40,682 nucleotides of DNA from a virus: IMG/VR virus record IMGVR_UViG_3300042380_000181, positions 1 to 40,682 of that record; one strand, written 5' to 3'. The translations under genes and the position numbers were made by a program. The number at the start of each line of letters is the position of its first letter. The first letter of the stretch is position 1. Under the pieces are notes generated by a model. That model was given only the letters and a program-made list of their open reading frames with translations. It searched no databases and was not told the DNA's origin. Below are positions 2,891 to 36,091 of this stretch, piece after piece.

Positions 2891-2917
2891 AGCATCGTAG
2901 TGAAAACGTCAACGTGT

Positions 2918-5578
2918 ATGGATGAAAAAAATCAAGAAATTATCGAAAAAGTCTTAGCCTATAAGCTGGAGGAACATCCAACGCTTCCGTCGCCGAATAA
3001 GCGGCAGCGCCTGGAGATGATCGAGAACATTGGCCCCGAGAAGGTACTCGACCTGTTCTTGATGCGGGAGAACAAGATTAAGGCGGAACTCAACGACCCC
3101 ATGCGCTATGGCCACGAGCTGCCGCACTGGCCGGATGCCGATAAGCTCTTGGGGCGCTTTAACGAGATTGTCGTCCTTGGTGGGAACAGATGCCTGGCTG
3201 GTGAAACGGAGATATACGATCCTGTGGCAAAAGTTTACAGGCGCATAGATCAGATTACGGAGCCGTTTTACGTTGAGTCCTGGGACTTTAATCTTAAGAA
3301 GAAAGTACAGGGACGCGCATCAAAGCCCTTTCAGAAGCCTGTTGATAACTTATACCGCGCTGTTCTAAGCAATGGAGAACAAATTCTTTGTTCGGCAGAG
3401 CATCGAGTTTCAACTCCCTTCGGATGGAGTTCCCTAAAAGACATCGGACTCGGAGGGCTTGTCGCTTCTCATCTGACAAGCAAAAGTTGGTTCTCTTCTT
3501 TCCTTGGTGCGCTGCCCTTATTTTTGCTAAACCTTCTTCCGTCCAGCGTGGGCACTTACCTTTCAAGGTTGCGCGAAGATGTTCTGCATTGGAGCGAAAC
3601 AGTTCAAGATTTTCTATCCGATTGTCCGTCGTCACTTCGTTTTTATGATGGACGACTTCTTTTGGGTCTAAAAACCGTCCTAGGTGGGCTTCCATCACAA
3701 GTCGATGCTCAAGAATGTAAGGAGTATGTTTTTTACGATGAGGATGGTCGGGCGCGTAAATCTCAATGTACCCGTCCTTATTTTGTATTCGGCCTCCACG
3801 CCATCCTTTGTGCAGGTTCCCGCTTCTTGGCCCGCTTCTCGGACATTGGATGTTATATTCACGGCACACCTTCGACAGATACGCTGTTGAGTATTTGTGA
3901 CCATGTAAGCGCTGAATTTCATCCAAAATGCTCTGTAAGGTGTCTCCACGCGCGATTGCGGCGGCTAGTTCAGTCTGCGATATCATTGATTTTAAGGGTG
4001 GTCTCATGGGCTTTAACTAAACACAACGAACTTAGACTCGTCAAGGTTTATCATAAACGAAAAGATACAGTATGGGATATCTCCGTTGATGGGTATGTTA
4101 ACTACTTTATTGGAGGCATTTTACATAAAAATTCAGGCAAAACTGAGTACGCCGCCAAGCGTATGGCCCAAGCTTTCATCGGCACTGACCTCAATGGACA
4201 GGCGCCTGACTGGGTAAAGGAACGCCACGGTAAGCGTAACATCCGCATCTGGTGCTTGCACACTACCCACATGACCAGCGTCTCTGCCCAGCAGAACGTC
4301 TTCTATAAGTACCTGCCGCCTGAGATACGCAACATTAAGCGAACTAATCATACGCAGATTAGTTTTAGCCAGAAGAACGGGTTCAGCGACAATACGGCGG
4401 TGTACATGGGTAACCAGATCTGGTTCCTTAACTACGCCCAGGACATTAAAGTCGTCGAAGGTGGCGAGGTGGACTACGTCTGGTGCGATGAACTTGTCCC
4501 GCAGAACTGGCTGGAGACTCTTCGCTACCGTTTGGTTACCCGGTCCGGCAAGCTGATTGTCACCTTTACGCCGGTGCAAGGCTACACCCAGGTCGTGAAG
4601 GAGTACATCAACAGTGCCAAGGTTACCGTTAGCCGTAAGTCGCCCCTGTTGCCAAATAACAACGTCCTAACCGTACCCAAGGGTGAGATGCCGTATCAAG
4701 CCGAGAACCTTTACGGACGACACGCCTGCATCTGGTATCATACCGAGCTCAACCCGTACAACAACTGGGAGCGCATGAAACAGGAGCTTTCGGGGCGCTC
4801 CAGCCACGACATCAAGATCCGCGCTTATGGTTGGGCAGATCAGACGGCTGGCTCCGAGTTTCCGATGTTCGGTGACCACAACTTGTGGAAGGGTGACGCT
4901 GAAGAGGTTATCCCTGAAGGTAGCAACTACATGGCTATCGACCCAGCCGGTGCGCGTAACTGGTTTATGCTTTGGGCTAGAGTAGATAAGTACGGTATAC
5001 TATGGGTCTACCGTGAATGGCCCGATCAAAGCTACGGTGAATGGGCTTTGCCTAGTGACAAGCCCGACGGTCGAGCTGGCCCGGCACAGAAGGCGGGTGC
5101 TGGCCGTGGGGTGAACGAGTACACCGAGCTTATCTGGAGCCTTGAGACTGCCGGGGACAAGCGTGAGATGATCGTGGACCGCTGGATTGACCCAAGAACC
5201 GCTGGCACAGAGACGATCACTAAGGACGGCGGTGTAACCGTGCTTGATCTGCTTAGTCAGGCTGATAATCCGCTCATCTTTACGCCTGCCGCAGCCCTGC
5301 CAATTGAGGAGCGCGTGCTCTTAATCAATGATCTTTTGTCATGGGATAGAGAAAAACCAATGGAAAAAGGAGTAAACCATCCAAAACTAATGATACATGA
5401 GTCTTGCCAGAACTTAATTTATAGTTTAAAGGAATGGACTGGACAAGATGGACAAAAAGGTGCTAGTAAAGATCCTATCGACGCTTTAGGCTATATGGTT
5501 GTCATGCAGCCAGCCTATTTTGGCGGCTTAGATTGGGAAAAACAATCTAAACGAATGTCTATGACAGGAAGTTATTAA
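2918..5578 (+). CDS. terL: Large terminase subunit interrupted by an intein
   Basis: This is the packaging motor: an ATPase followed by a nuclease that cuts concatemers at the portal. The ATG at 2918 gives 886 aa; a GTG at 2900 would add six residues. Residues 92-405 are an intein (3191-4132). Removing it joins GGNR to SGKT and restores a perfect Walker A motif, leaving about 572 aa, a normal TerL size. A Walker B-like acidic motif (VDYVWCDELVP) lies near 4471-4500, and the nuclease core begins with AIDPAGARNWF near 4932. The portal gene follows after one base. The small subunit may be the 194-aa gene at 38901, which precedes this gene on the circle. Confidence 0.93.
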   Translation: MDEKNQEIIEKVLAYKLEEHPTLPSPNKRQRLEMIENIGPEKVLDLFLMRENKIKAELNDPMRYGHELPHWPDADKLLGRFNEIVVLGGNRCLAGETEIYDPVAKVYRRIDQITEPFYVESWDFNLKKKVQGRASKPFQKPVDNLYRAVLSNGEQILCSAEHRVSTPFGWSSLKDIGLGGLVASHLTSKSWFSSFLGALPLFLLNLLPSSVGTYLSRLREDVLHWSETVQDFLSDCPSSLRFYDGRLLLGLKTVLGGLPSQVDAQECKEYVFYDEDGRARKSQCTRPYFVFGLHAILCAGSRFLARFSDIGCYIHGTPSTDTLLSICDHVSAEFHPKCSVRCLHARLRRLVQSAISLILRVVSWALTKHNELRLVKVYHKRKDTVWDISVDGYVNYFIGGILHKNSGKTEYAAKRMAQAFIGTDLNGQAPDWVKERHGKRNIRIWCLHTTHMTSVSAQQNVFYKYLPPEIRNIKRTNHTQISFSQKNGFSDNTAVYMGNQIWFLNYAQDIKVVEGGEVDYVWCDELVPQNWLETLRYRLVTRSGKLIVTFTPVQGYTQVVKEYINSAKVTVSRKSPLLPNNNVLTVPKGEMPYQAENLYGRHACIWYHTELNPYNNWERMKQELSGRSSHDIKIRAYGWADQTAGSEFPMFGDHNLWKGDAEEVIPEGSNYMAIDPAGARNWFMLWARVDKYGILWVYREWPDQSYGEWALPSDKPDGRAGPAQKAGAGRGVNEYTELIWSLETAGDKREMIVDRWIDPRTAGTETITKDGGVTVLDLLSQADNPLIFTPAAALPIEERVLLINDLLSWDREKPMEKGVNHPKLMIHESCQNLIYSLKEWTGQDGQKGASKDPIDALGYMVVMQPAYFGGLDWEKQSKRMSMTGSY
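3191..4132 (+). other. Intein (314 aa) in the terminase Walker A motif
   Basis: The coding frame enters an intein at Cys1 (codon 3191-3193, CLAGETEIYDPVAKVY, block A) and leaves at Asn314 with Ser as the +1 extein residue. Block B is GEQILCSAEHRVST, with its His at residue 71. Blocks F and G are VWDISVDGYVNYFIGGILHKN. The penultimate residue is Lys, with His one place earlier, unlike the usual His-Asn ending. Between blocks B and F the sense frame shows no LAGLIDADG or HNH motif; that segment is the reverse complement of a separate HNH gene. Insertion exactly at the P-loop codons is typical for inteins. Confidence 0.93.
3294..4007 (-). CDS. HNH homing endonuclease encoded antisense inside the intein
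   Basis: This 237-aa frame runs opposite to the terminase and lies wholly inside the intein. Residues about 8-55 look like a DNA-binding helix-turn-helix (SQTELAAAIARGDTLQSILD, then YLSKVCREYNI). Residues 98-143 form an HNH core: ILEHRLVMEAHLG, then EVVHHKNEVTTDNRIENLEL with the HH pair at 120-121, and a final His at 143. Catalytic-type His and Asn are all present. The start may be Met1 or Met8 (3984-3986). The last ~60 residues lie opposite intein block B and may be dispensable. It is probably the mobility enzyme of the intein, although endonuclease domains are normally fused in sense. Confidence 0.85.
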   Translation of the reverse strand: MRPPLKSMISQTELAAAIARGDTLQSILDEIQRLHGHKYSTAYLSKVCREYNIQCPRSGPRSGNLHKGWRGGRIQNKDGYIEIYAPDHPHRKKHTPYILEHRLVMEAHLGRFLDPKEVVHHKNEVTTDNRIENLELFRSNAEHLRATLKGKCPRWTEEGLAKIRAAHQGKKRTNFCLSDEKRQALRVRCLLGNSIRRELKLDALPNKEFVLHCLEQRGISYQQASERALMRVPVLSS

Positions 5579-9029: not shown

Positions 9030-10085
9030 ATGGCACTTCTTACTGAACCCCAACTTAGCGGTCGCGGTCTACGCGAAGACTTGATGGACATGATTGCGCT
9101 CGTTGACGCAAAGGACACTCCTTTTACGTCGATGGCTCGCAAAGGCAGCAAGCCCGGAAATATGTACTTCCGTTGGCAGTCTGACTCGCTTCCTACCCCT
9201 CAGGTAGGTGGTGTGGTGGACGGCACGGACGTTTCCACCTACGACAACTACGTCGTTGGTTACCGCGCTGAACTCGCGAACTACGCACAGGTGTTCCGCC
9301 GTGCAGTGCGCGTGTCCCGCCTCACTCAGGACATCGCTGATGTCGCAGGTGTGCGTGACGAACTGGCTGACAACGTCAGCAAGGGCATCACTGGCATCAA
9401 GCGTGACATGGAAGCGACCTTCACGTCGAACCAGCTCTCGCAGCAGGACAACGGCACGACTCAGGCCTATCGCACCGCTGGTGTGCAGACCTGGATCAGC
9501 ACCGCTGGTACTGGCACGCCAACTCCCGGAGACATCCCTTTGATCTTCCGTACTCCTTCGACCTCGATCCTCACTGGTGCATCCAGCGGGTTGACGGACG
9601 CAGGTGTGCAGGGGCTTCTGAAGTCGATCTTCGACCAGACTGGCCACTACACCAGCTTCGATGCCATCGTCGGAACTGACCTGAAGCGTGCCTTCACCGG
9701 CTTGCTCGGAACGACGGCTCTGACCACGGTCAGCAACTCCAGCAACACGCTTGCTGCTGGTGCTACCAAGGTGCAGACCTTCCAGCGTGACGCTGCGGCT
9801 GACACCTTCATCCAGAGCTTGGACGTGTTCCAGGGTGACTTCGGAACGGTGCGTCTGCATCCTTCCACGTTCATCGGAACCGTGTCCGGCACAAGCTGGA
9901 CGCCAACTCCTTACAAAGGTCTTGTGCTTGACATGAACCTCATCGAGGTTCGCTACGGCGGAAACGTCGCTAACGTCACTGCACTGCCAGATTACGGTGG
10001 TGGCCCTGCTCGCTTGATCGAAGCAGTTGCTGGCTTGGTTGTCGGCAACCCGCTCGGCCTCGGGAAATTCGACTACTCCTCCTAG
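9030..10085 (+). CDS. Major capsid protein (SU10-like, DUF5309-type)
   Basis: The 351-aa sequence (start MALLTEPQLSGRGLREDLMD) carries the hallmarks of the SU10-type major capsid family. These include DAKDTPFTSMARKGSKPGNM, an FRWQSDSLPTPQ strand, the EGTD-like segment VDGTDVSTYDNY, the long helix VSKGITGIKRDMEATFTSNQ, and a C-terminal beta region (LVLDMNLIEVRYGGN, then LPDYGGGPARLIEAVAGLVV). The fold is expected to be HK97-like. It follows the scaffold gene behind a short A/T-rich leader without SD and is followed by the tandem RNA elements. Codon use is biased to C-ending codons, as expected for a highly expressed gene. Confidence 0.88.
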   Translation: MALLTEPQLSGRGLREDLMDMIALVDAKDTPFTSMARKGSKPGNMYFRWQSDSLPTPQVGGVVDGTDVSTYDNYVVGYRAELANYAQVFRRAVRVSRLTQDIADVAGVRDELADNVSKGITGIKRDMEATFTSNQLSQQDNGTTQAYRTAGVQTWISTAGTGTPTPGDIPLIFRTPSTSILTGASSGLTDAGVQGLLKSIFDQTGHYTSFDAIVGTDLKRAFTGLLGTTALTTVSNSSNTLAAGATKVQTFQRDAAADTFIQSLDVFQGDFGTVRLHPSTFIGTVSGTSWTPTPYKGLVLDMNLIEVRYGGNVANVTALPDYGGGPARLIEAVAGLVVGNPLGLGKFDYSS

Positions 10086-10332
10086 TAGTTGTTGATTGGT
10101 GACACCTACCCCGACGCGAAAGCGTTTCTTGAAGTGGTGTGACACTCTGGAGAGACAGAGACAATTTTGCGACACCTGCCCTGCTGGCTGGCAATGGCAC
10201 GGACCGGGATTTCTCGGTCTCCGCAGTGGTGTGACTAGCTGGAGAGACAGCTGTCGGCAACGGCCATGAATCGTTGTGGGGAACGCACCTCTTAGTGGCG
10301 TGACACCTCGGAGAGACGGGGACAATTTTACT
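10086..10332 (+). ncRNA. Three tandem covarying stem-loop elements after the capsid gene
   Basis: The spacer holds three related units. Each has a GTGGYGTGAC box followed by a 5-bp hairpin closing an invariant GAGAGA loop: CTCTG/CAGAG (10145-10160), AGCTG/CAGCT (10237-10252) and CCTCG/CGGGG (10306-10321). All stem sequences differ but pairing is kept. The GTGGYGTGAC box is complementary to an upstream ACACC or ACGC segment, enclosing an inner variable hairpin in two units (ACGC-GAAA-GCGT in unit 1, GACCG/CGGTC in unit 2). Units 1 and 3 end in GACAATTTT, which could act as weak terminators. No known RNA class is recognised; the covariation supports a real RNA structure. Confidence 0.65.
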
Positions 10333-34912: not shown

Positions 34913-35151
34913 GCGACTGGGTACTCATTCGGCGCACTAACGTGCTTCAGAACGTGGAGCTGCCACGTCCCAAGAAGACGCAGGACATCGTCTGTGTCGG
35001 CCCGAAAGACGCGCTAGGCTCGAAGATGGAGTTGCTTATGCTTCTGCCGGAGAATCAATCGACAGATCTTATCGAGGTGAATTATGTGCTTGAGCCGTAC
35101 ACGGGACAGCACTCACACACGTCTGCAAGACCAGGCAATGGAACACGATAA
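34909..35151 (+). CDS. Hypothetical protein (80 aa)
   Basis: It starts in an ATGA overlap (MSDWVLIRRTNVLQNVELPR), is mixed alpha/beta, and ends in a His/Ser/Gly-rich tail. The stop at 35149-35151 overlaps the ATG of the second methyltransferase-region frame (TAATG), while the methyltransferase ATG lies 13 bases earlier inside it. Family unknown. Confidence 0.55.
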   Translation: MSDWVLIRRTNVLQNVELPRPKKTQDIVCVGPKDALGSKMELLMLLPENQSTDLIEVNYVLEPYTGQHSHTSARPGNGTR

Positions 35152-36091
35152 TGTGGATACTACCGAAACAATTACACACGTTGGCCTCTGTGCAGGATAC
35201 GGGGGCATTGAACTTGGACTTAAACGAGTCCTCCCAGCTTTGCGCTCAGTCGCTCTTTGTGAGATCGAAGCCTTCGCCATTGCGAACTTGGTTGCAAAAA
35301 TGGAAGCGGGACTCATGGACGCAGCACCTGTTTGGACGGATCTTAAGACCTTCCCTTGGGAAAGCTTTCGAGATCGAGTGGACCTCCTTACTGGCGGTTA
35401 CCCCTGTCAGCCTTTTAGCGCAGCAGGAAAGCGACTCGGAGCAGAAGACGAGCGACACTTGTGGCCACACATTGCTAAAGGCATCGCTATTCTCAAGCCA
35501 AGAGTTTGCCTATTTGAGAACGTCGAAGGACATATTACGCTGGGACTCTCCACTGTTATCAGCGATCTGGAAGAAATGGGTTACAAAGTGTCGTGGGGAA
35601 TATTCAGCGCGGCTGAATGCGGTGCGCCTCACCAGCGGAAACGAGTGTTCATCTTGGCCGTCGCCGGTGGCATCGGAGGTACGACAAGGTTTTCAGGACA
35701 GATCACGCGGCATGAAGGGCAGTCAGGAATCACTTACTACTGTGGTGCTCAAGCATGGCCTTCCCGCCCCGGCCAACCACAGCACGCATGGGAGCCGCCC
35801 AGAGTCGTGGGCAACGCCCAGATGTTCAATGGCACAGGACAAGCAGGAGGACAGTGGAAAACACAGGCTACGGGAACAGGCGCAGCACAACACGAACGGC
35901 AAACTCAACCCACGCTGGGTGGAGACGTTGATGGGATTACCGATAGGCTGGACGATGCCGAGTTGTACGTCACCTGTGACAATCGCACAGACGAGTTGCG
36001 CCTCCTCGGAAACGGCGTAGTTCCAGCCACAGCAGCGTTAGCTTTTACCACATTACTAAATGAACAAAGGAATACTCGTCATCTCGCTTGA
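35138..36091 (+). CDS. DNA cytosine-5 methyltransferase (Dcm-type)
   Basis: The ATG at 35138 gives 317 aa. Conserved motifs appear in order: I (VGLCAGYGGIELGL), IV (GGYPCQPFSAAGKR, with the catalytic Cys in PCQ), VI (LFENVEGH), VIII (HQRKRVFILA) and X (LLGNGVVPATAALAF). The region between VIII and X, where target recognition lies, is Gly/Gln/Thr-rich and less protein-like than the rest. In the same stretch the overlapping +1 frame shows a strongly conserved-looking sequence. The enzyme probably protects phage DNA from host restriction. Its 3' end overlaps the helicase C-part. Confidence 0.85.
   Translation: MEHDNVDTTETITHVGLCAGYGGIELGLKRVLPALRSVALCEIEAFAIANLVAKMEAGLMDAAPVWTDLKTFPWESFRDRVDLLTGGYPCQPFSAAGKRLGAEDERHLWPHIAKGIAILKPRVCLFENVEGHITLGLSTVISDLEEMGYKVSWGIFSAAECGAPHQRKRVFILAVAGGIGGTTRFSGQITRHEGQSGITYYCGAQAWPSRPGQPQHAWEPPRVVGNAQMFNGTGQAGGQWKTQATGTGAAQHERQTQPTLGGDVDGITDRLDDAELYVTCDNRTDELRLLGNGVVPATAALAFTTLLNEQRNTRHLA
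35151..36020 (+). CDS. Overlapping +1-frame protein in the methyltransferase gene (289 aa)
   Basis: A second frame is open for 870 bases over the methyltransferase. It starts at a TAATG overlap with the preceding gene (MWILPKQLHTLASVQDTGAL) and ends with a distinctive tail: NECSSWPSPVASEVRQG, GSQESLTTVVLKHG and LNPRWVETLMGLPIGWTMPS. I know this tail and the LPKQLHT start from many phage methyltransferase loci, which argues that the frame is translated. Alternatively it is the true C-terminus reached by frameshifting. Ser/Trp/Leu richness is expected of an overprinted frame. Function unknown. Confidence 0.6.
   Translation: MWILPKQLHTLASVQDTGALNLDLNESSQLCAQSLFVRSKPSPLRTWLQKWKRDSWTQHLFGRILRPSLGKAFEIEWTSLLAVTPVSLLAQQESDSEQKTSDTCGHTLLKASLFSSQEFAYLRTSKDILRWDSPLLSAIWKKWVTKCRGEYSARLNAVRLTSGNECSSWPSPVASEVRQGFQDRSRGMKGSQESLTTVVLKHGLPAPANHSTHGSRPESWATPRCSMAQDKQEDSGKHRLREQAQHNTNGKLNPRWVETLMGLPIGWTMPSCTSPVTIAQTSCASSETA

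Follow-up and report, generated by a model that had tools for sequence, protein, structure and literature searches.

Where is the homing nuclease of an intein encoded if the intein polypeptide itself carries none? This question was raised by the gene for the terminase large subunit (TerL) in a viral DNA of 40,682 nucleotides (IMG/VR record IMGVR_UViG_3300042380_000181, positions 1 to 40,682; hereafter the window). In textbook inteins, the nuclease is part of the same polypeptide. A preliminary description of the window, made from the letters alone, had instead placed an HNH endonuclease frame on the strand opposite to the intein. Anatomy, conservation, selection on each strand, the occurrence of empty, occupied and mini alleles as well as the incongruence between intein and exteins, all read from sequence, indicate that the element is very probably a mobile intein with a novel arrangement, its homing nuclease being encoded as an antisense gene. 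The following features were assigned (AF2, AlphaFold2; a slash marks a splice junction):

2900–5578, plus strand: gene of the terminase large subunit (TerL), into which the intein is inserted; 892 aa when started at GTG, with an alternative start ATG at 2918
3191–4132, plus strand: intein of 314 aa, C1 to N314, splitting the Walker A motif/P-loop GGNR/SGKT
3191–3469, plus strand: N-terminal splicing region of the intein, blocks A and B (AF2 pLDDT about 95, invariant columns, sense purifying selection)
about 3371–3427, plus strand: intein block B with the invariant His71
3470–4030, plus strand: B-F linker, with no sense domain (Pfam), sense evolution near neutral, stop-free
4031–4132, plus strand: C-terminal splicing region of the intein, blocks F and G (AF2 pLDDT 95–98), ending in HKN and followed by the +1 Ser
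3294–4007, minus strand: antisense HNH endonuclease gene with a putative homing function; 237 aa, ATG start, Pfam and PHROG matches
3858–3938, minus strand: helix-turn-helix-like region of the nuclease, residues 24–50 (AF2 helices 24–35 and 41–50; HTH Pfam matches in relatives)
3576–3710, minus strand: HNH core, residues 100–144 (Pfam HNH_3; invariant columns)
3297–3473, minus strand: C-terminal helices of the nuclease opposite the N-splicing domain of the intein (AF2 pLDDT 94–97 for residues 181–229; sense strand there about 95)

The C-extein of the window TerL matched Terminase_6N (Pfam, E 1.7e-4), and portal and major head genes were located downstream of it. The intein blocks A, B, F and G and the boundaries 3191–4132 given in the preliminary description proved exact, with support from Pfam, NCBIfam and Foldseek. 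The junctions read VVLGGNR/CLAGETEIYDP...GGILHKN/SGKTEYAA, block F is VWDISV, and the penultimate residue is a lysine (HKN) in place of the usual histidine. The Pfam profile Intein_splicing matched the window copy with E 2.9e-5, at a score below the curated Pfam one, and matched 65 of 72 relatives at E<=0.01; NCBIfam intein_Nterm matched the window intein with E 1e-3. Comparison of 72 inteins revealed the invariant residues C1, H71, D296, Y305 and N314; the +1 position of the window intein is a serine. Moreover, the AF2 model matched the DnaB and RecA inteins in the PDB (Foldseek, E 4e-6), and the pLDDT of 94–98 in both splicing halves together with these matches assigns the element to the HINT fold.

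No endonuclease was found on the sense strand between blocks B and F, in agreement with the preliminary description: a Pfam search revealed no such domain in any of the 72 inteins, and residues 118–180 of the sense linker were modeled with a pLDDT of about 40, a value that may partly stem from poor alignment in this region. With neither a Pfam endonuclease nor a confidently modeled linker, the window intein does not belong to the class with a sense-fused endonuclease. Natural mini-inteins of 132 aa exist without the B-F linker. The linker probably lacks an independent fold and would be translated solely to hold the frame open. An element with an antisense endonuclease gene might also be taken for a group I or another self-splicing intron, since group I introns with such genes have been described (PMC9548176). 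This reading was rejected, and its probability is negligible: the window gave no Rfam match, the structure matches solved inteins, and the N- and C-terminal splicing domains are joined in one unbroken reading frame in the window and in every member locus read.

The 237-aa protein encoded on the complement matched Pfam HNH_3 (E 2.5e-11) and phrog_20891 (1.3e-25), and the HNH_3 match was obtained for 52 of 52 antisense proteins tested. The residues H121, N129, N133, N140, and H143 are invariant over 52 divergent relatives. The AF2 model reached a mean pLDDT of 92.3; its best structural match in the PDB was I-HmuI, a weak one (E 0.45), and a PDB sequence search with the HNH protein gave no match. 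Nuclease residues about 41–170, including the HNH core, are encoded between intein blocks B and F, and the last ~60 codons of the ORF overlap the N-terminal splicing domain (block B). The HNH frame proposed in the preliminary description is thus supported by family similarity, by invariant catalytic residues and by the purifying selection described below; a protein without similarity to the HNH family, which would have spoken against it, was not what was found. The helix-turn-helix proposed there was borne out in part, by the AF2 helices and by HTH Pfam matches in several relatives, whereas the window protein itself has no HTH match in Pfam.

Relatives were collected by IMG/VR scans with the HNH, with the intein and then with profiles. 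Most members were found via the HNH query; the collection is therefore biased towards HNH, and the share among TerL inteins can be estimated only from the TerL-based sample collected with the C-extein. Among 120 deduplicated intein DNAs, the inverted layout with a complete antisense HNH was present in 113, including three inteins scored as partial that fail the strict motif only and have full-length ORFs. One further intein has a truncated HNH (L099) and six are mini-inteins of 132 aa, so that 113 of 114 HNH-bearing inteins keep the full-length antisense frame. In the widest scans, the opposite strand was fully open in the same register in 81 of 83 viral matches; the remaining two are L106, which is truncated by the contig end, and L157, also intein-bearing, in which two open frames tie. 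Besides metagenomic viruses, the members come from cultured or finished genomes, namely eight Ymer-type Pectobacterium/Dickeya phages including Pectobacterium phage Ymer, Pseudoalteromonas phage PHS3 (with a continuous intein frame), and the bacterial carriers Acinetobacter sp., Enterobacter cloacae DSM 26481 and E. coli MEI003 (prophage). The scan of genome contigs gave no matches with the narrow profile A1 and gave matches with the wider profile A4.

The host terminases fall into several Pfam classes (Terminase_6N/6C, Terminase_3), and the P-loop junction occurs, for example, as GGNR/C..HN/SGKT, AGFG/C..HHN/SGKT, GGRG/C..HN/SGKS, or GPAS/C..HHN/SAKS. In L171, from a bacterial MAG, the antisense-HNH intein is located three residues further along Walker A (NRVGK/C...HHN/T), which suggests a change of the target site. 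Identity to the window in L029 is 76% for the HNH, 68% for the sense intein and 53/70% for the exteins; the corresponding values in L013 are 59%, 46%, and 41/34%. The composite of an intein and a separately encoded antisense HNH is thus conserved in very divergent terminases. In an internal control, 64 free-standing HNH relatives from bacterial genomes had no long open opposite frame and their registers were mixed. Two free-standing HNH-like matches 1.3 kb apart, outside any intein, were also seen in L014 and L015 (about 4001–5417). In the HNH tree, antisense HNHs cluster apart from free-standing ones, and a single clade is not established. The layout is not a one-off capture, and all members share one register. 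That it originated, by one capture or by several, from a free HNH that entered a mini-intein, as had been proposed, is plausible.

By itself, an open frame on the antisense strand would carry little weight. In the window genome, the major head gene (9030–10085) is overlain by a 418-aa antisense ORF (9069–10325, minus strand) without PHROG or family match, which probably arose by chance, and four chance cases were seen among the genome matches (L204, L229, L230, L233), all in another register. Such cases would favor an ordinary mini-intein with a neutral linker, in which the antisense HNH similarity is due to chance or to an assembly artefact. We consider this next to impossible. An artefact would have to recur in more than 100 different records, including the finished genomes of Ymer, PHS3, E. 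coli MEI003 and Enterobacter cloacae DSM 26481, and a chance ORF was rejected because of the HNH homology found in every protein tested, the purifying selection on the antisense strand and the avoidance of stops; the real chance cases lack either the HNH or the intein.

In the register shared by the members, antisense codon position 1 is opposite sense position 1, antisense position 2 opposite sense position 3, and antisense position 3 opposite sense position 2 (pos1-pos1). With this pairing, a sense stop is unavoidable wherever Phe precedes I, M, T, N, or K. These five residues make up 24% of the protein, yet not one of 81 Phe residues is followed by any of them. Synonymous recoding of the window HNH gave a mean of 7.3 expected sense stops, and recoding of the sense frame gave 7.4 expected antisense stops, whereas none was seen on either strand, so that the stop-free state of both strands over the HNH ORF was upheld. 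In 22 representatives, 5–9 sense stops per gene were expected by HNH recoding and none was present in 22 of 22.

The constraint on each strand was estimated as dN/dS by a counting method on disjoint pairs, without correction for multiple hits or transition bias. In the linker, the antisense dN/dS of three groups was 0.33 (0.24–0.46), 0.14 (0.11–0.18), and 0.11 (0.08–0.16), against sense values of 0.95, 0.50, and 0.65 in the same order. The pattern was reversed in the splicing blocks, with a sense dN/dS of 0.15–0.16 in the N-splicing overlap. The antisense dN/dS in this overlap (3297–3473) was 0.36 (0.19–0.67) in the group with inteins of 310 aa, the window group having too few changes. Moreover, the codon position with the most substitutions is sense position 2 in the linker, which corresponds to the antisense wobble position 3, and sense position 3 outside the linker. 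Purifying selection acts on the antisense frame of the linker, whose sense frame evolves almost neutrally but stays free of stops. Both strands of 3297–3473 are predicted to be well folded, and therefore this stretch appears to be two-strand coding; in the block B overlap, both strands look constrained.

No sigma-70-like antisense promoter was predicted, and a Shine-Dalgarno sequence preceded the HNH start in 3 of 22 cases versus 4.4 expected, without any excess. The HNH may therefore be expressed weakly, from a leaderless message or under control from outside. The absence of these signals, together with the loss that mini-inteins and the truncated HNH of L099 prove to happen, would fit an antisense HNH that is the relic of a former mover, no longer expressed or active, whose open frames are leftovers. 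Such a relic is very unlikely given an antisense dN/dS of 0.1–0.3, the invariance of H121, N129, N133 and H143 and the full-length frame in all but one of the HNH-bearing inteins. Expression of the nuclease would be the weakest link of the proposed mechanism.

Mobility was assessed in a sample that is unbiased with respect to the intein, collected by a search with the window C-extein. The 78 alleles read belong to one TerL family and one site, with 48 empty, 29 occupied and one cut at the contig end. All 48 empty alleles have a contiguous GGNR/SGKT. The occupied ones comprise 9 window-type inteins, 4 copies of a second antisense-HNH intein (293 aa) and 16 mini-inteins; three of the 29 run into a contig end and were classified by their C-terminal sequence. 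Close relatives of the window terminase (L272, L276, L323, and others) contain nuclease-free mini-inteins of 132 aa at the same site. In L099 (970–1539), the intein frame is open and the antisense HNH is cut to 94 codons, its N-terminal half being gone. Loss of the HNH under an open sense frame, which the preliminary description had named as evidence against its reading, thus does occur, but in the manner that a homing cycle predicts: empty, active, decaying (L099) and mini alleles together may represent the stages of such a cycle.

The nucleotide identity of the intein exceeded that of the C-extein in every pair except window/L020. In the pair window/L024, the intein was 97.0% and the C-extein 85.0% identical. 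Between L020 and L021, the inteins are identical and 270 nt of the N-extein are shared, with just 89.7% identity in the C-extein, whereas comparison of L020 with the window shows an identical C-extein and differences in intein and N-extein. The pattern of these three alleles is consistent with recombination near the site, of the kind expected from gene conversion. In E. coli, the intein was present in one of 777 region-matching genomes (MEI003); the other genomes among the matches listed have the flanks only, and these are contiguous (ET729, 88% identity). The incongruence between intein and extein identities shows that the element moves independently of its flanks. The HNH always lies within a terminase gene, and some HNH proteins encoded beside terminases are known to aid packaging (Kala et al. 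2014, as cited in PMC12613952), which might point to a role in phage DNA packaging rather than in intein mobility. We regard this role as very improbable, because the spread of the HNH tracks the intein and not TerL; nearly identical terminases without it (the 48 empty and 16 mini-intein alleles) indicate that the HNH is dispensable.

Mobile inteins with a sense-fused nuclease, such as those of mycobacteriophage TerL (PMC5050341), share with the window element the blocks A, B, F, and G, the insertion into the TerL ATPase domain, the empty/occupied polymorphism and mini derivatives. Their nuclease, however, is a domain of the intein on the same strand, whereas the window nuclease has a gene of its own on the strand opposite to a nuclease-free linker. 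Antisense homing-endonuclease genes have been described in nuclear group I introns (I-DsqI and Dir.S956-2; PMC9548176), where the nuclease gene is likewise antisense to the splicing element and the host gene and needs independent expression. Those elements reside in rDNA and are spliced at the RNA level, and their insert does not require an open protein frame on its sense strand, so that no two-strand coding constraint exists there. ShiLan-type HNHs are out-of-frame, same-strand insertions in methylases that leave the host frame open (PMC11855218). The ShiLan HNH is a relative of the window HNH (39% identity over residues 42–137) and likewise lies concealed within an insertion, in an alternative frame. 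In contrast to the window, it lies on the strand of the host gene without intein splicing domains, and that paper makes no mention of an antisense arrangement. I-HmuI and other phage intron-encoded or free-standing HNHs (PHROG 20891, 10730) have an HNH_3 core with DNA-binding flanks like the window nuclease, but are intronic or separate genes whose opposite strand is non-coding. No paper describing an intein with an endonuclease gene on its antisense strand was found in the open-access literature, in line with the earlier remark that the layout is not known as standard.

For the mobile intein with an antisense nuclease, the following mechanism is proposed. The terminase precursor would be translated through the intein, and the splicing domain, with its N-terminal Cys, C-terminal Asn and the +1 Ser, would remove itself after translation. 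We infer that the HNH is made from an antisense transcript of its own, which does not depend on the terminase message, and that it cleaves empty sites. Its N-terminal DNA-binding region would probably direct it to the conserved codons of the P-loop in terminase genes without an intein, so that empty alleles in co-infecting or resident phages would be cut. Repair from the intein-bearing copy would then copy the intein and the nuclease gene together, and after fixation the nuclease could be lost, leaving mini-inteins.

Antisense-HNH inteins put splicing and mobility on separate strands. They also indicate that ~0.7 kb of antisense coding can stay open across great divergence, which offers a natural, many-times-replicated test bed for the evolution of overlapping genes. 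More tentatively, and with rather less than even confidence, they may be widespread two-strand mobile elements of phage terminases, with the splicing domain on one strand, the homing nuclease on the other and a folded, selected and doubly coding stretch at 3297–3473; antisense expression would free the timing and dose of the nuclease from the late terminase message and could permit homing early in infection. Since cultured phages carry such inteins, splicing, homing and antisense expression are directly testable.

Gene callers choose one strand, and terminase and HNH are therefore misannotated in MEI003, PHS3, and Ymer. In E. coli MEI003 (L346, NZ_CP071263.1), the terminase is given in RefSeq as a pseudogene without its N-terminus and the antisense HNH WP_077828224.1 is annotated instead, whereas the 802-codon intein-containing frame is intact. 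The PHS3 annotation contains a truncated terminase and a separate HNH. In Ymer, the terminase is annotated as hypothetical and the HNH was missed; the Ymer paper mentions neither intein nor HNH. Finally, another case of overlapping frames was seen in the window, where two nested ORFs on the plus strand in different frames, 35084–36091 and 35151–36020, are both DNA methyltransferase-like (phrog_363, 1e-58; phrog_1008, 1.7e-17). Different parts of both nested frames matched phrog_1008, which would correspond to dual coding or to a frameshift.
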